A stretch of DNA of 64,000 nt from Cadophora sp. MPI-SDFR-AT-0126. Its lineage: Eukaryota; Ascomycota; Leotiomycetes; Helotiales; Ploettnerulaceae. Shown one piece after another: positions 6,001-41,033 of this stretch. The DNA is taken from the NCBI GenBank assembly GCA_020747065.1, contig JAGMVK010000010.1:1-64000 (forward strand). Direction: 5' to 3'. Under the pieces are notes generated by a model, which was not told the DNA's origin, did not search any database, and saw nothing but the letters and a program-made list of their open reading frames with translations. Position 1 is the stretch's first letter, and every line of letters begins with the position of its first letter. The position numbers were made by a program, and so were the translations under genes.

Positions 6001-6059
6001 AAGAGTATACTAAAAGAAAGAATAATAATTAAAGAAAATAATATTCTATTATACTTAAG

Positions 6060-6165
6060 AAATATTATAATTAATAATAATTAATTAAATTAAATCTTAT
6101 TACTTATTAAGTAATTTTTTAATTAGTCTTTTAAAGCTCTAGTACAACTTACTTAATAAGTAAAA
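6060..6165 (+). repeat. Left arm of an inverted repeat
   Basis: Its reverse complement aligns to 7768-7876 through TACTAGAGCT, AGACTAATTAA and ACTTAATTTAATTAATAA-like blocks with scattered transitions. The arms lie about 1.6 kb apart and may mark two opposed copies of one element, or the ends of one. Confidence 0.7.
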
Positions 6166-6235
6166 AAAAGAGTATATATATATATAATAGTTAAAGAAAA
6201 AGAAAATAAGTAGTAGTCTAGTATTACGAATACTT

Positions 6236-6330
6236 CTAAGAGGCCGCGAGGCCCTGGAAGGAGAGATCCTGCGAGTAAGCGCACTTCTAAGAACTAGGCA
6301 GCTCTTAGGAGCGCGACTCTCTAAAGCCTA
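6236..6330. other. GC-richer relic inside the AT island
   Basis: About 95 bp with GAGGCCGCGAGGCCCTGGAAG and GCGAGTAAGCGCACTTC stand out sharply from the AT-only surroundings. It is too short to identify and may be a segment that escaped RIP or a piece of unrelated DNA. Confidence 0.5.
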
Positions 6331-6569
6331 AGAGCTTTTAGGAAATATAAGTTACTTAGTTAAGGTTTATAATAGTATTTTAGAATACAGCGATTTAGCT
6401 ATAGGTTTCTACAGCTAAAGTTATATAATAAATCTCTAAATCCTTAAATCCCTTACTTATAAAAGAGATCTAAGAATTTAAGGATCTAAAACTTTAGAAG
6501 ATTTAAAAGATCCTAATACTACAGGAATTCTATATAATTAGATAATATTTCTTATTATAAATAAAAGCC

Positions 6570-6712
6570 TTGTACTTAACTTAAATATAGTATTATTATA
6601 TATACTTAATAATTTATAAACGAGAATTAGTTTAATTAGTAATAGCGCCCCTATCTACTAACCCCACTAACTCTTCGTACTCTCGAGCAATACCAGCCCG
6701 ACCGTACGTTAT
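6570..6712 (+). repeat. Diverged direct repeat, copy B (less mutated)
   Basis: Partner of 5861-6000. It retains cytosines that are thymines in copy A, so it is nearer the ancestral sequence of the element. Confidence 0.8.
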
Positions 6713-7767
6713 ATCTAGTAAGAAATACTTAAAAAAACATTAATTAATTTCCCTAAGTAAGTACTACGCTTTTATCTTTTTAAAATATTAAAGTCTTTAT
6801 ATATTAAAATAAGTAAATTTATTTTTTATTTTTTAGTTAATTTTATAACTTAATAATAGAGTACTATAATAGATAGATCGCGTAGTTATATATATCGCAA
6901 ATCACAAGACTTAAGAGTTATAAGACTAGATAACTAGATATAACGTTATAATAGAACTAGCGACTATATCTTCTATACTTAAGCTTAAGACTTCTTCTAA
7001 ACCTCTTTTTCTCTTATAATAGTTTAATATTTACTCGATATAAATATAAAGATAATAATTAATCTCTAATAATTAAGAAGTAGATATATTATATAGATAG
7101 TAGAATACTCTCTTACTATAATACTTAAGAGCGAGCTTTTTAAGAAAAGAATATATATAGTAGAGATTAATCTTAGTAAACTTTTATTATTTAACTTATA
7201 TATTCTATATTATACTTAAGCTAAGATCTTCTTTTAAAAATCTTAAGAAGATTAATAGTACTTTTTTTTTTAATAAGATTTATACTTTTCTCTTTAATTA
7301 ATAATTTTACTCTTTAAATATATAATATCTTTTAATTTTATTTATCTATTATTTCTTAAATCTTATATCTTATATATTATATATTTACTATTCTTTTATT
7401 ATATAAAAAATTAGAATTCTCTTTTCTATAATACTTAATAACTATCTATAACTATTTATATAATATATCTACTTCTTAATTATTAGAGATTATCGTAGTC
7501 TTTTATATTTATACTAAGTAAACATCGAACTATTATATACTTAAAAGATTATAAAATAAAACTTAGTTATTTTTATATATAAAAATCTTAGTACTTATAA
7601 AGAAAGAAAAAAGAAAAGAAGTAATATATATAAGAAAGTTAGTTAGATATTTCTTATAAACTTCTTACTAGACTTCTTCTTATTTATATTTTTTTTAATA
7701 ATTCTATATATATATACTCTCTTTTCTTTTTAATCCTAACTCTCTTTTCTTTTTTCTTTCTTTTATA

Positions 7768-7876
7768 TACTAAGTAAATAAGCTATACTAGAGCTCTAAG
7801 AGACTAATTAAGAGATTACTTACTTAATAAGTAGTAAGACTTAATTTAATTAATAATAATTAGTTCTAATATTATA
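7768..7876 (-). repeat. Right arm of an inverted repeat
   Basis: Inverted partner of 6060-6165. This arm is less AT-converted (GAGCTCTAAGAGACTAATTA versus the A-rich equivalent in the left arm). Confidence 0.7.
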
Positions 7877-7994
7877 AAGAAGTAAAGTAGTACTATTAAA
7901 TACATAGTAAATAGAGAAATAATCCGCGCGCAGATTAATTAGGTAATAGAAGTAAGAGAAAGAAGATAATAATTACTAGTCTAGCGATACTAAC

Positions 7995-8060
7995 TTATTT
8001 ATCTACGATTAAAATAAAAAAATAAAAACTCTTATAGTAGGCTTTCAACTCTACTATAAT
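7995..8060 (+). repeat. Direct repeat copy 1
   Basis: TTTATCTACGATTAAAATA, then AATAAAAACTCTTATAGTAG, is repeated at 8319-8385 with several G/C-to-A/T changes. Confidence 0.65.
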
Positions 8061-8318
8061 ATTTATCTCTCTATTTCTATAGTATACTCTTCTAAGATAT
8101 ATTAGTCTTAGCTAGAAAAAAGTATTATTTAATATTATAAGATAGATAACTAGAGTAAAGAGAAGAGAAATAGAGCTATACTTATAATCTAGATCTTTTA
8201 GAATATAATCTTTTTAAATATAAGTCTATATATATAAAGAGAGTATAAATCGATTATAGACTTACGCTTCTCTTTTAGACTATAAAAGAGCAATTCTATA
8301 AGTAGTAGTAATATAGAT

Positions 8319-8385
8319 CTATTTACTTATAACTAAAATAAAAAAAATAAAAACTCTTATAATAGATATTTAGCTTTATTATACT
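8319..8385 (+). repeat. Direct repeat copy 2
   Basis: Second, more AT-converted copy of 7995-8060 (TTTACTTATAACTAAAATA, then AAAAACTCTTATAATAG). Confidence 0.65.
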
Positions 8386-8462
8386 ATATTAATAAATTCT
8401 TAATTATTAAATTCTTAATTATTAAATTCTTATAAATTAAATTACTAATTATTAAACTCTTA

Positions 8463-8635
8463 AAAATTAAATTATTAAATTATTAAATTATTAAATTATT
8501 AAATTATTAAATTATTAAATTATTAAATTATTAAATTATTAATTATTAAATTATTAATTATTAAATTATTAAATTATTAAATTATTAAATTATTAAATTA
8601 GTAAATTATTATTAAATTATTAAATTATTAATTAT
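8463..8635. repeat. AT minisatellite (TAAATTAT units)
   Basis: A long run of TAAATTAT units with minor length variants; nearly pure A/T. Confidence 0.9.
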
Positions 8636-9520
8636 TACTTATTAAATTTTAAAAAAAATAAAATTCTAAAATTTTAAATTCTTAATTATTAAACTTTAAA
8701 AACTAAATCTTAAAAGATTAAATCCTAAATTTTTAAATTTAAAATTATTAACTTTAAATCTTTATATTCTAAATATTAAATTTTAAAAAATTAAATCCTA
8801 AAATATTAATTTCTATAATATTAATTTCTATAATATTAATTTCTAAACTATTAAATCTTAAAAAATTAAATTCTAAAATATTTAATTATTTTAAATAATA
8901 ATAAAATCTTATAATAAAATCTTATAATAAAATCAAATATAATAAATATAATTCTTTTTATAAATTATCTCTCTCTTTTTATATTTTCTTTATAAAAATT
9001 CTTTTTTACAAATATTAAAAATTAAACTAAAAATATAGTATATTAGATTAATAAATACTTATCTTAATAATTATAAAAACTAGATTAATTAAGCTAATTA
9101 TCTTCTATTTCTTTACTAAAAGTCTAATATCTTTTTCTACTTTAAGATTATAATACTTATAACTAATAGAAGTAAGTATATCTTTAATCTTTAATCTTTA
9201 GCTTTAATCTATAAGCTTATATATTCTCTTAGTATTATATATCTAGAATTTTACTTAAAGAATATAATACTAGATAAATTACTAGAAATTAAACTAAAAT
9301 TCGAGAGCTATTATAATAATAGTAAATATATACTTATAAGCTTTATTAATATTAACTTTCAAAATCTAACTTTTATAGTAAATAATATTATAGACTATAA
9401 ACTAATCTCTAACTTTATTAGAGACTTCTTTATAAAAAATAAAAAATTTATAGATAAGATAAATCTTAAGTATTATATTAAAAGCTCTTATTAACTAGAG
9501 TAATAGACACTATTGACTTG

Positions 9521-11343
9521 GATTTTAGTAATAGTAATACTACACTTCCAGATCTTTATCCGATGGTAGGAATAAAGCAAAGAGAAACGCGCATTCAGGC
9601 AAACTTCGAATAGCAGGAATTTGTTTATGATATACGTAACACCGTACGAGATCAGCATTTTGTTGTATCGGTCAGAACCCGGAGAGCATTTGATTTGTCA
9701 GACTTCGATGATGAATCGAACTAGACTTGGCTACCAGCCATCGTTGGAACTCCAGTTAATCCAGCCATCATCTCCGCTAAAATTGCTTATAAGCCAGCAG
9801 TTGAAAAAGGCAAGGGTCCTACAACTGGCACGGCAGGGTATGGTGAAGATATTAGTAGTAAAGCCAAGAAGAGGTATACTGTCAATGTTTGAAGTACCGT
9901 CTAGATGGTTCTGGTTCACTATTTCTCAGAATCACGGCTATCCTCAGCATGAAGTACCTAAGATGCTGCAGCGGTGGGAATTCTAGGAATTTTCCAATAT
10001 GAACCATCTGCAAGTACTCCTTTGAAGACAGTTGACCCATTTATCGCTTGATGGCACCAGTCGGCCCTGAACGACCGCATTAGCTTCATCTAAGCTGTGT
10101 AGTTCGAAAATGTTATGCGGTGGTCTGAGTATGGAAGCCAGCCGTCGTCCTTGATCGATTGTAATCTTTTCGATTCTTTTTACTTGATAGTCGTCTGAAG
10201 TCAAGTTGTCTGGTTTCATTCTCATCCGAAGTGTTTCGCGCGGCTTGTCAAGTTCCAGTTTGAAACTTGCACATGATATGATATTTCTTGGCGGCCTAGG
10301 AGAGGAATCACATCCTCGCCTCACCTCAAACGTGCCTTGCTCTGATTTGGAAATTGTGGATTCACCCAGGCTTTTTTGAGACTTGCGGTTCGCTTGGCAC
10401 TTAGTGGAAGAGGAATCTCTTCCCCACATCAGGTTGGGTAGCCCAAATGCTCTCGTTTAATGATGCCTAATTTTAAGCTTATTATCAACTATGCATAATC
10501 GTACATGTGAAGAACCAGGATACCTAACTTACCAGATATGAAAGCGGCTCGATATTTATCGAGACAAAGACATGAGGCTAAGTGGCTTTAATATTCATTC
10601 TTACGGATCCTCACAGCCCAACAGTGTCCCGCGTCACATTCCCATTCGTTACTGGAAGCGTTGCCTCGCCTCGGCAGTTCGGTCCTAATGAATATCAGGA
10701 GAGAAGCTTCGAGCCAAGGCTCTGGGAACCCCCAGCGTGACGCGTACAAACCGCTGCCAAACATCAGACTGAAGCCAAGCATCTAGTGCGGCCACAACGG
10801 GAGCTTGGCCAGAACAACAATATCTTAGCTGTACTGGAGCGTTTGACCTACCGCCTCCCATACCTATCACAGCCCATCTCAAGCTATCTCAAACTGCCTG
10901 GGGCTTGGACCGTTGATTATTCTGGGTGGACAGACAGCCCATCAAGGCGGGGAAGTGGAGATTTTCCGAAGTACGACAACCAGGTTAGGGACTAGACGAT
11001 GTGCACGGAAAATCTGGTGGGCACGGCCTTGTTTGTAGAGGAATGAAGTGATCGATCCCCAGTGTGAGCCCAAGCACGCCACGTCCCCCTATTCGCTGGC
11101 GGGTACAATCGAGATCTTGTTTTTCTAAATTTTCTCCTCTTCTCCTTTTCGTTCAGCAGCTCTCTTGTCATTTGATTCTCGGGCGCGAATCTATTCTTTT
11201 ACAGGACCAATACATTGCATTCTGGCGCTGGCGCTTATTCATACTACTTTGCTTCATTCATACTCCATTTTTCGTTGTCTTCATTTACCTCATAATCTAT
11301 TATGCTGCTGTAAAGACACCCGCGGACACAGTACATCGCCGAT
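9521..11343. other. Region right of the AT island, no confident gene
   Basis: Base composition returns to normal. One open frame on the minus strand (9983-10429) is listed separately as a weak candidate. A plus frame at 9621-9986 has no recognisable motif. The last 250 bp before 11344 are pyrimidine-rich, as expected for a promoter and 5' leader of the large gene that follows. Confidence 0.5.
9983..10429 (-). CDS. Unrecognised 148-residue reading frame
   Basis: An ATG-initiated frame (MWGRDSSSTK...) with balanced amino-acid composition but no motif, signal peptide or membrane segment that I recognise. It lies beside the RIP island in a gene-poor stretch. It could be a chance frame or the relic of a larger gene. 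Confidence 0.25.
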   Translation of the reverse strand: MWGRDSSSTKCQANRKSQKSLGESTISKSEQGTFEVRRGCDSSPRPPRNIISCASFKLELDKPRETLRMRMKPDNLTSDDYQVKRIEKITIDQGRRLASILRPPHNIFELHSLDEANAVVQGRLVPSSDKWVNCLQRSTCRWFILENS

Positions 11344-34693: not shown

Positions 34694-36613
<1,920 letters not shown>

Positions 36614-36629
36614 GCCTCTGTAGCTCAAT

Positions 36630-36686
36630 GTGAGTTTTTCCCAGACATTCGGATTGGATTGAATTTGATTCTAACAATTTCAACAG
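36630..36686 (+). other. 57-bp insert with spliceosomal-intron signals in the tRNA D-loop
   Basis: It begins GTGAGT, has CTAAC at 36671-36675 eleven bases before the end, and ends TTTCAACAG. These are the donor, branch and acceptor signals seen in protein-coding introns throughout this window, and the length is typical. Removing it restores the canonical tRNA D-loop exactly. It does not resemble a tRNA-type intron and lies at a non-canonical position. Confidence 0.8.
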
Positions 36687-36706
36687 GGTAGAGCGCGTCA
36701 CTAGTA

Positions 36707-36725
36707 CTACTGCTTGCAGAATGGT
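36707..36725 (+). other. Canonical 19-nt tRNA intron
   Basis: It follows position 37 of the anticodon loop, where eukaryotic tRNA splicing endonuclease introns occur. Removal gives the loop CTAGTAA, as in fungal tRNA-Thr(AGT). Confidence 0.75.
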
Positions 36726-36781
36726 ATGACGAGGTTGCCGGTTCGATTCCGTCCAGAGGCATGTCAAGTCTGCGGGGCTTA

Positions 36782-36787
36782 TTTTTT
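36782..36787 (+). terminator. Pol III terminator candidate (T6)
   Basis: Six T residues 21 bp beyond the tRNA 3' end. A longer T8 run follows near 36837. Confidence 0.7.
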
Positions 36788-37167: not shown

Positions 37168-38944
37168 TCAATCAATAATATAATTCTTAAATTCCCTCGT
37201 CTTCACACCTCTCGCAAACATCAAATCCAGCTCCTCAAAAGTCCTACCTTTCGTCTCCGGAACCCTGAACCAACACCAAATCAAGCACACAACGGACAAA
37301 CCACCTATATTTCCCGATTAGTGGTGTTGCGGGCTCGCTTAGCTCTCAGATGTGTAAACTCACCAAAGAAAAATCCCATCTTTCCTCGCATGTTGGCTTG
37401 ATCAGGATTGATCATGTAAGGGATCGCCACGGTCATTACGATGCCTACGAGAGCTTGTGCTGCGGTTGCTACTGCGATGGTTTTGGTGCGGACTTTGGTG
37501 GCTGATACTTCGCAGAAGATGGTGTAGCAGACTGGGCCAATGCTGAGATCGAAGACTCCGTTCCAGATAATCTGAGGGTGCATGTCAGTTGCATGCCACA
37601 CTTGAGAGAGAATAGCATCCTACCATGAGCGTTGACTGTGCCCAGATGACTCCGGGTCTATTCTCGTAGTTGGGAGCGCAATCCAAGATACCGATGATGA
37701 ACATGATGAGTGTGAGGAAAGCGAGTCCAATGTTATAGATTCGCCTTCGGCCCCACGTCGACAGAAAGATCCATGATATACAGGTGCATACCCATCCCAA
37801 GGCGAGATAGCCAACACTCATGTTGAATGACTTTTGTCCGTCGAGGCCAGCGACTGAAAACATGAGTAACAATCCAAGCCACGACTTCAGGAGCACTTAC
37901 GCTGAAAGAACAGTGCCGCATACCCCACCATGTATATTCCACTGAATACCTGAGTAGTAAACACTGCAACCGATATCTCTGTTCGTCGAATATTCACTTT
38001 ATTGAAGACATCCCAATAAGTGACACCCGTTTGCATTTCAAACTCCAGCTTATCCGTTTCTATCATCATCGCTAGAACGAGCTTATTGTTGACTGCTGAA
38101 GACGACAAGCGATTCAAAGATCGTTCCGCCTCCTCTATCCGATTCTGTCTGATCAGCCACCACGGTGACTCCGGCGCAAATGGGATCCCGCAAAGAATGA
38201 TGATAGGCCATAGCCACTGTATGGCAAACGGAGTACTGTACGCCCAGTGATTATCCAGCTGTGAAGAACCGGCAATGACACCGTTTGCAAGGAGCTGGCC
38301 AGTGACAAAACACAAATTGATATACGCTGTGAGATGTCCTCGAAGAGCAATAGGGCACACTTCCGAGGCGTAAGTCGGAGCGATGGTCGTGTACATTCCC
38401 AGGATGAGACCGCCGATTAGCTCGCCGACTAGCAGGACTTCGATGGATCGAGCGAAGAACTGCATGAATATGAACGCTGCCGTACCCACAACACAAGCTG
38501 CGAAGGTCTGAAGAAATCAGCGCGCATTCAATAGAATGAAATGAGGCATACCCATTTCCTACCATACCTCTCCATAGGATAACTAGCCGCCAGCGCACCA
38601 ACAACCTGTCCGATCGGATTTCCCATACCGAGCGCCGTCTGCCATGGCGCGCTGATGATATACGATCCCTTATAGAGATAGCCAAAGTCTCTTTGGAATG
38701 CAGGAGTAGCATACAAGCTGCCGAGCAATTGGGGATCGAAGGCTGTCATGATTACTCCGAGAGAGAAGAAGGCTGACCAGCCGATGGCGGAGGGGTAGAG
38801 CTTGACTCCTTCCATGAAGGTCATTTCGTGCTCGATCTCTGTGGCGCGGCGGGCTTCGTCGCCGATTTCTTTGTGGGAGACGTCATTTCGAGATGTTTTC
38901 TCGGGTGCTGCTTCTTCGGTCAGATTTGCCTCTGGCTTCTCCAT
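37168..38944 (-). CDS. MFS sugar transporter, alpha-glucoside permease type
   Basis: Five exons (38944-38552, 38507-37901, 37853-37624, 37571-37364, 37304-37168), 524 residues. The N-terminus is hydrophilic and charged, then come the 12 helices of a sugar porter. Family motifs are MERYGRK (loop 2-3), PTYASEVCPIALRGHLTAY (after helix 4), PESPWWLIRQNR (after helix 6), then STWGRRRIYN and the C-terminal PETKGRTFEELD. The sequence between helices 1 and 2 (FDPQLLGSLYATPAF) and the central loop are closest to fungal maltose/alpha-glucoside permeases rather than hexose carriers. It should act as a proton symporter in the plasma membrane. It is divergent from the GH27 alpha-galactosidase gene, which suggests joint control and uptake of released oligosaccharides. 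Confidence 0.9.
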
Positions 38945-39683: not shown

Positions 39684-41033
39684 ATGTCTTTGAACCGAAT
39701 TTTGGTTCTGGCGGTAGCCAGCTTCTTTCCATCCGGACTGTGCAAAACTACCATTTCGCCCTCGGCATCACCAACCATTGACTCGACTACCAGTCTATAC
39801 TCTCCAGGTCCAGCTGAAACAAATGCAGGTGCTTTGAGCAATGGTCTCGCTCTAACACCACCAATGGGTTGGAGCAGCTGGAACCAGTTCGGAGATCAAA
39901 TTGACGAAGACCTGATCAAAGACACCATGGACACAATGGCATCAAACGGCTTGAAAGACGCCGGTTATGTATTCGTCAATCTCGATGATGGATGGCAACG
40001 CTACAAAGGGAACAGATCGGACAATCCCCTGGAAGTCGATCCCGACAAGTTTCCCAGCGGCATGAAATCACTCGCAGACTATGCTCACGCAAATGGCTTC
40101 AAGCTGGGGATTTACTCCGGTCCTGGCCAGATGACTTGTGCTGGGTACACTGGCAGCGAAGGACACGAAGATGAGGATGCAGCGATGTTTGCATCTTGGG
40201 GCATCGATCATCTGAAATACGACAGCTGCTGCTCGAGCGGGGAGGAAGCACCAAGGTCAGAGATGGAAGAGATTGCCATGAAGATGTCGAAGTCTTTACT
40301 TGCACAATCGCATCCAATTGTCTACCATTTCTGCCACTGTGGGTGGGCTGATGTGTGGGAATGGGCTGCAGGTGAAGGTGCCAATCAATGGCGCATTGGT
40401 CAAGACATCTCGGATGACTTCAATTATCCTGGGAATCGGGAGAAGTACTACTTCGATGTGCTAGATATGCTGGATCGTGGAAATGATCTTGTGCAGTATT
40501 CTGGACCTGGGCATTGGAACGACTATGACATGCTGATTGTTGGGCTGAATGGGAACAGCTCTCAGCTTGTGGGAACAGGGGCTTCCAACATCGAGTACAG
40601 GACGCACTTCAGCATGTGGGCAATGGTAGCTTCACCACTTCTCATCGGATCTGATGTCCGTGCTCTCGACGCATACTCTCTAGAAACGCTTTCAAACAAA
40701 GAAGTAATTGCAATCAACCAGGATCCACTCGGAATCTCAGCTGAGAGTGTTGGGATTGGAGAGGATGAGGACCTGCAGGTGTACGCGAAAGAAATGTCTG
40801 ACGGGAGTTATGCTGTCGCTCTCTTGAATCGTGGGAGCTTCACAGCGGAGATGAGCGTGAGTCCACGTCGAGATCTTACCATGGAATGGGATACCTTTCG
40901 AGTTCGGGATTTGTGGAAACACAAGGAGGGGCTGTATGATGTTCCGTACACTGTGGAGGTGATGCCTCATGAAGCGAAGATACTGAGACTGTGGGAGGTC
41001 CCAGCGAACGCGTCAATGTGCTTCTTTCATTAA
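39684..41033 (+). CDS. Secreted GH27 alpha-galactosidase
   Basis: A single exon of 449 residues. The signal peptide is MSLNRILVLAVASFFPSGLC, followed by a short Ser/Thr/Pro-rich spacer to about residue 50. The catalytic domain starts at LALTPPMGWSSWNQFG. It has VNLDDGWQ, GFKLGIYS, the nucleophile Asp in HLKYDSC (~180) and the acid/base Asp in RIGQD (~241), then GPGHWNDYDML and SPLLIGSDVR. The C-terminal beta domain is present (VYAKEMSDGSYAVALLNRG). The enzyme removes terminal alpha-1,6-galactose from galactomannan, raffinose and similar sugars outside the cell. It faces a sugar permease gene on the opposite strand. Confidence 0.95.
   Translation: MSLNRILVLAVASFFPSGLCKTTISPSASPTIDSTTSLYSPGPAETNAGALSNGLALTPPMGWSSWNQFGDQIDEDLIKDTMDTMASNGLKDAGYVFVNLDDGWQRYKGNRSDNPLEVDPDKFPSGMKSLADYAHANGFKLGIYSGPGQMTCAGYTGSEGHEDEDAAMFASWGIDHLKYDSCCSSGEEAPRSEMEEIAMKMSKSLLAQSHPIVYHFCHCGWADVWEWAAGEGANQWRIGQDISDDFNYPGNREKYYFDVLDMLDRGNDLVQYSGPGHWNDYDMLIVGLNGNSSQLVGTGASNIEYRTHFSMWAMVASPLLIGSDVRALDAYSLETLSNKEVIAINQDPLGISAESVGIGEDEDLQVYAKEMSDGSYAVALLNRGSFTAEMSVSPRRDLTMEWDTFRVRDLWKHKEGLYDVPYTVEVMPHEAKILRLWEVPANASMCFFH

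Follow-up and report, generated by a model that had tools for sequence, protein, structure and literature searches.

Spliceosomal-type introns in tRNA genes suggest that a Cadophora fungus makes tRNAs with its mRNA-splicing machine

Among the closest described parallels to the genes reported here is the gene for U6 snRNA. The U6 gene of Rhodosporidium contains multiple introns. Tani and Ohshima reportedly found a spliceosomal (mRNA-type) intron in the fission yeast U6 snRNA gene (Nature 1989, 337:87-90). As in the tRNA genes considered here, the fission yeast intron is spliceosomal with GT-AG ends and lies in a fungal Pol III transcript that is short and structured. However, U6 belongs to the catalytic centre of the spliceosome, of which tRNAs are no part, and the genes for tRNAs possess internal promoters and a dedicated splicing enzyme. 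Spliceosomal introns also occur in ascomycete rDNA (Cubero 2000; Bhattacharya 2000, as cited in a passage of PMC11889510), and likewise interrupt genes for non-coding, structural RNAs that are not transcribed by Pol II. The rDNA transcript is a large product of Pol I, whereas the introns described below lie in Pol III tRNA genes, with up to three per gene. Canonical nuclear tRNA introns interrupt some of the very genes analyzed here, but they occupy a single position (37/38), lack GT-AG ends, and are removed without the spliceosome, nuclear tRNA splicing being described as spliceosome-independent in a passage of PMC13149111. Finally, the non-canonical bulge-helix-bulge tRNA introns of Cyanidioschyzon and archaea, described together with permuted tRNA genes in an excerpt of PMC3978253, are also found in the D-loop, the T-loop, the acceptor stem, and the variable region. 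They differ from the present inserts, which lack the bulge-helix-bulge, by that structure and by removal by the endonuclease. Among the papers listed by searches of the open-access full-text literature, subscription papers being mostly outside that collection, none was seen from its title and abstract opening to report tRNA genes with spliceosomal introns.

The window, i.e. the whole stretch of 64,000 nucleotides that was analyzed, contains a tRNA-Thr(AGT) gene. Its parts were assigned with the Rfam tRNA family (RF00005), with R1, our own covariance model built from 22 tRNAs of the same genome, and by comparison with sister genes (L003, L032, and L086).

36565..36574, forward strand: upstream Pol III-like element CCAAATACGA, 39 nt ahead of exon 1; consensus of the family, CCAAATAAGA; PWM score 8.9.
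36614..36629, forward strand: exon 1, comprising the acceptor 5' strand, the D-stem 5' strand, and the start of the D-loop (GCCTCTGTAGCTCAAT); Rfam, R1, and sisters L003, L032, and L086.
36630..36686, forward strand: 57-nt spliceosomal-type intron GTGAGT...CAACAG; splice signals and exact removal by comparison with sister L003.
36671..36675, forward strand: branch-site motif CTAAC (in TTCTAAC), its branch A lying 12 nt from the 3' end of the intron; sequence motif.
36687..36706, forward strand: exon 2, comprising GGTA, the D-stem 3' strand, the anticodon stem 5' strand, and the anticodon AGT; Rfam and R1.
36707..36725, forward strand: 19-nt canonical 37/38 tRNA intron (endonuclease type), after A37, with a possible C32-G(-3) A-I pair; not GT-AG.
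36726..36761, forward strand: exon 3, comprising position 38, the anticodon stem 3' strand, the variable loop, the T-arm, the acceptor 3' strand, and the discriminator A; Rfam and R1.
36740..36750, forward strand: B box GGTTCGATTCC, intact.
36782..36787, forward strand: T6 run, probable Pol III terminator, beginning 21 nt past the gene.

The original prediction had read this locus as a tRNA-Thr(AGT) cloverleaf with two inserts, and the models bore this out. The Rfam family covered positions 36614 to 36761 end to end (39.2 bits for a gathering threshold of 29), its alignment placing one insert in the D-loop and the other in the anticodon loop, and R1 scored the gene at 49.5 bits. The cloverleaf, the intact B box, and the T6 run are those of a Pol III tRNA gene. 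The upstream element scored moderately; 1.5% of random 100-mers from the window reached 8.9. In its unspliced form, the gene was not called by ARAGORN. Excision of the 57-nt D-loop insert yields AAT|GGTA exactly, as predicted, and sister L003, which carries neither insert, has AATGGTA at this place. Assignment of the 19-nt insert to the normal tRNA introns is supported by its position and its possible A-I pair.

The search was extended to the 53.96-Mb assembly (38 contigs; one genome). The arrangement originally predicted, a Pol III tRNA gene split by a spliceosomal-type intron, recurred in at least 22 more tRNA genes, giving a set of 23 genes with 27 inserts. These genes represent 13 anticodons and 10 amino acids: Thr(AGT) (three genes), Thr(TGT), Met(CAT), Ile(AAT) (three), Arg(TCT), Arg(TCG), Arg(ACG), Pro(TGG) (two), Gly(GCC) (three), Ser(GCT), Leu(AAG), Ala(AGC) (two), and Asn(GTT) (three). 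The inserts interrupt the acceptor stem (5/6 and 6/7), position 8/9, the D-loop, position 25/26, the anticodon stem, the variable loop, the T-stem, and the T-loop. Two genes (L086 and L094) contain two spliceosomal-type introns each and one (L096) contains three; canonical 37/38 introns are additionally present in several interrupted genes. The searches that located the inserts relied on covariance models, on similarity to exons, or on the position of the B box and made no use of splice signals. Exon boundaries were set by hand, with GT-AG known beforehand and sister genes as a guide, and the anticodons of Met and some others were also assigned by hand, as ARAGORN misplaces some introns.

The counting base was compiled by hand. 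The 23 interrupted genes belong to about 76 well-formed tRNA genes that were handled (48 from the covariance search, of which 5 are interrupted, 18 more interrupted, and 10 more uninterrupted), a base that is incomplete, 62 of 1988 covariance candidates having been scored, and enriched for interrupted genes, broken matches having been fetched deliberately. A less biased sample, drawn from the first 100 B-box places listed (107 further places lay beyond these, and four places in two palindromes were left out), contained 27 well-formed tRNA genes, six of which had spliceosomal-type introns; by design, genes whose B box is split are absent from this sample. The inventory is incomplete, and no tRNA genes for Phe, Tyr, or His were recognized in it. 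Three loci were omitted from the counts. L067 (G000 C2:545682-545830, minus strand) is tRNA-like, with good acceptor, D, and T arms, an upstream element, and a T-run; its anticodon loop contains an insert of about 77 nt, has no U33, and fits neither the spliceosomal nor the canonical type. L125 (G000 C7:1452880-1453420) consists of two tandem tRNA-like genes with an odd anticodon arm. L105 (G000 C12:3861450-3861850) is an apparently truncated tRNA-Leu(AAG) copy ending after the 5' side of the anticodon stem.

Splice signals were conserved throughout the class. GT, G at +5, and AG were present in 27/27 inserts, as was a CTRAY motif with its A located 9 to 17 nt from the intron end. Length was 49 to 60 nt for 25 inserts, and 96 and 116 nt for the other two. 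GT-AG ends with a 5' consensus, a near-fixed branch distance, and restoration of the tRNA upon removal are, at the sequence level, the characters of U2-type introns. We estimate at about 90% the probability that the 57-nt insert is a genuine U2-type GT-AG spliceosomal intron within a Pol III tRNA-Thr(AGT) gene and belongs to a genome-wide class. The class as a whole suggests that the fungus makes tRNAs with its mRNA-splicing machine. Within 58 kb of the window, the AT-rich block being omitted, GT-CTRAY-AG candidates were modestly enriched (24 for a Markov mean of 12.4 and a maximum of 22 in 40 simulations); an earlier, stricter count gave 5 for 2.2.

The exons flanking the inserts were conserved and compatible with a functional spliced product. 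After intron removal, ARAGORN found all 22 genes tested (L159 was outside this test), with the expected isotype in 21 (Leu was printed for L042) and the expected anticodon in 20 (ggg was also printed for L091). Before removal, the program made a call in 7 of the 22 genes, with the right isotype in 4; it called none of the window gene, L032, and L086, and misnamed both Asn genes tested. Because unspliced genes are missed or misnamed in this manner, annotations of such genomes may lack tRNAs that are actually present. Detection by ARAGORN does not fix the boundaries, as 16 to 22 of the 22 genes were still detected after the excised segment had been shifted by up to 4 nt. The terminal exon nucleotides were 70/70 identical in 7 of 12 paralogue pairs; intron cores of the pairs aligned no better, or barely better, than shuffled sequence, with residual similarity in 3 of the 12 (at most 10 of 500 shuffles aligning as well). 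The three Ile genes matched the intron-free gene L006 at 74, 74, and 72 of 74 positions, and the two differences, both in L046, compensate each other: they affect pair 2-71, whose two nucleotides flank the intron. The acceptor strands of the first and last exons paired 7/7 in 22 of the 23 genes as printed. For the remaining gene (Ser), printed as 3, the string ended one base late and pairing was 7/7 by eye. None of 478 mismatched gene pairs reached 7/7.

The genome search for further Thr(AGT) copies that had been called for at the outset yielded L003 (uninterrupted), L032, and L086, i.e. four copies with the window gene. They differ by compensatory changes at acceptor pairs 4 to 7. A T-stem mismatch had raised the possibility that the window gene is a pseudogene. 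The mismatch (C-T) is real, but it is common to all four copies found and thus does not point to a pseudogene; that reading was dropped as far as it rested on the mismatch. Further points against it are the acceptor pairing of the window gene, which is intact, its upstream element, and its T-run, although an uninterrupted Thr(AGT) copy exists. The intron of L032 is offset by exactly one base relative to that of the window gene, and the intron of the Ile gene L046 by exactly one base relative to those of L040 and L049. These offsets between homologous tRNA genes may reflect sliding or separate gains.

The flanks of the interrupted genes are mostly conserved and Pol III-like. An upstream matrix was trained on 45 tRNA genes devoid of spliceosomal-type introns, in which the consensus element mostly lies 19 to 53 nt upstream of the gene (10th to 90th percentile). 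Element scores above the 95% level of the background were obtained for 18 of 22 intron-bearing genes and 40 of the 45 others; the intron-bearing genes below that level were L086, L087, L088, and L092 (L159, found later, was unscored). In the genes with acceptor-stem introns and in L094, the element lies 27 to 41 nt from exon 1, a normal spacing, although the intron shifts the A box and the A-box side of the intron is 78 to 95 nt away. TATA-like upstream elements are reported to be important for fission yeast tRNA genes in a passage of PMC11346459. A run of five or more T residues was present within 60 nt downstream of 21 of 22 intron-bearing genes (L147 being the exception), 40 of the 45 others, and 5% of random stretches. 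At position 53/54, the intron-final AG rebuilds most of the B box (AG|TTCGATTCC, 9 of 10), and 4 of the 10 T-loop introns therefore leave a near-consensus B box. A partial B box is kept in L099, and no recognizable B box is left in L087, L088, L091, L092, and L097. Because these five genes have lost a recognizable B box, and because the upstream element is weak as well in three of them (L087, L088, and L092), some T-loop-intron genes may be poorly transcribed or decaying.

The latter observation bears on the possibility that the interrupted copies are tRNA pseudogenes, i.e. that introns accumulated in spare Pol III genes and stay unspliced while intact sisters do the work. Twelve of the 13 anticodons (all but Asn) are also represented by copies lacking a spliceosomal-type intron, including L003 for Thr(AGT), so that most interrupted copies could be dispensable; in addition, the B box is damaged in five of them, and truncated copies such as L105 do occur. 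We nonetheless consider this explanation unlikely, as the exons of paralogues have remained identical while their introns diverged to near-random sequence, the acceptor strands still pair and show compensatory changes across introns, and splice signals are retained in every insert. A further counter-example is tRNA-Asn(GTT). All three genes found carry an intron at 25/26 (GCGC|GTAAG...CCAG|GTTCG), the predicted exon junction of the spliced tRNA being GCGC|GTTCGACTGTT. An intron-free query detected no uninterrupted Asn(GTT) gene over the genome, in a search that seemingly wants long exact words (it missed L003) and could let a divergent copy escape; the covariance-search list (62 of 1988 candidates scored) and the ARAGORN lists contained no Asn gene. 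Nuclear genomes are not known to encode a second Asn isoacceptor, and the fungus should therefore require removal of the 25/26 intron. We consider it probable that the spliceosome is an obligatory tRNA-processing enzyme in this organism. In this reading, all genes for at least one indispensable tRNA, Asn(GTT), are split, many other tRNA genes carry one to three such introns, and single pre-tRNAs would pass through both the spliceosome and the endonuclease. Translation capacity would in that case be directly coupled to spliceosome activity.

Introner-like elements of fungi were reportedly described by van der Burgt in 2012. An introner-like origin, as originally proposed for the 57-nt insert, would make the inserts a recent family of DNA elements bringing their own splice sites, in keeping with their uniform length and signals. 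Introners are near-identical repeats; by contrast, each of the 26 inserts that were compared with the genome (all but the repeat-rich L091 intron) matched only itself, in a search that seems to need long exact words and could miss old copies. All-versus-all BLAST of the inserts gave matches of just 10 to 16 nt, mainly at the branch and the 3' end. Paralogues share intron positions and hardly any intron sequence, indicating that many of the introns are old. With no near-identical copies among the 26 introns searched, the introner origin was not supported and appears very improbable. Equally hard to credit is the red algal and archaeal mode, in which the tRNA endonuclease cuts out non-canonical introns: although bulge-helix-bulge introns away from 37/38 are known in Cyanidioschyzon and Crenarchaeota (excerpt of PMC3978253), this identity was dropped because the structure, named beforehand as the finding that would argue for the endonuclease, was looked for at the insert ends and a 4-bp central helix was present in 0/27 inserts (versus 13 of 1071 random cuts), and because GT-AG and CTRAY are universal in the inserts whereas GT-AG was found in 0/21 canonical 37/38 introns of the same genome, even if slid by up to 3 nt.

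For spliceosomal introns in tRNA genes, the following course is the most likely. Pol III would start upstream of exon 1, guided by the upstream element, and stop at the T-run. The D-loop intron would be removed from the pre-tRNA by the spliceosome, in the nucleus. Folding of the cloverleaf would follow, then end trimming by RNase P and RNase Z; the 37/38 intron would be taken out last, by the tRNA endonuclease and ligase. The spliceosome is placed first because introns of the acceptor stem and T-loop should block the fold needed by RNase P and the endonuclease. As to the origin of the introns, reverse splicing followed by reverse transcription and recombination has been proposed for U6 introns. 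A similar route, with reverse splicing of intron RNA into abundant RNAs, may apply here and is favored since the introns are unique (26 searched, self-matches only) and located at exact empty sites. If spliceosomal removal is correct, more than two dozen spliceosomal tRNA introns would break the division between the spliceosome and tRNA splicing, Pol III pre-tRNAs with only 5 to 6 mature nucleotides in exon 1 (Ile genes, 5' leader excluded) would be spliceable, and many insertions with clean empty sites would be available for testing intron gain.

Other Pol III RNA genes of the assembly were inspected for introns. No intron was found in 26 matches to 5S rRNA, all of 119 to 121 nt (47 of 2664 candidates scored). 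For U6, there were at least four matches (L082, L083, L084, and L085; 47 of 3418 candidates scored). L083 showed no intron, and the copy L084 has diverged. GT-AG introns resembling those of the tRNA genes in kind, which adds to the case for spliceosomal introns in the latter, were present in L085 (two) and L082 (one), with sizes of 51, 55, and 51 nt; L085 scores below the family cut-off. U6 introns in fungi are of an already known kind.

In the window, the tRNA-Thr(AGT) gene lies between two gene fragments, and a third gene follows further on.

34694-35269, minus strand: GH10 fragment with CBM1.
37887-38489, minus strand: sugar transporter fragment.
39684-41033, plus strand: GH27 alpha-galactosidase.

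The GH27 protein is 95% identical over 87% to a GH27 alpha-galactosidase of Leptodontidium sp. and 84% identical to one of Rhynchosporium agropyri, which suggests a filamentous ascomycete from the Helotiales or their vicinity. Positions 6001 to 10000 of the window have a G+C content of about 20%, versus mostly 45 to 53% elsewhere in the window, and this block is perhaps a RIP-mutated repeat.
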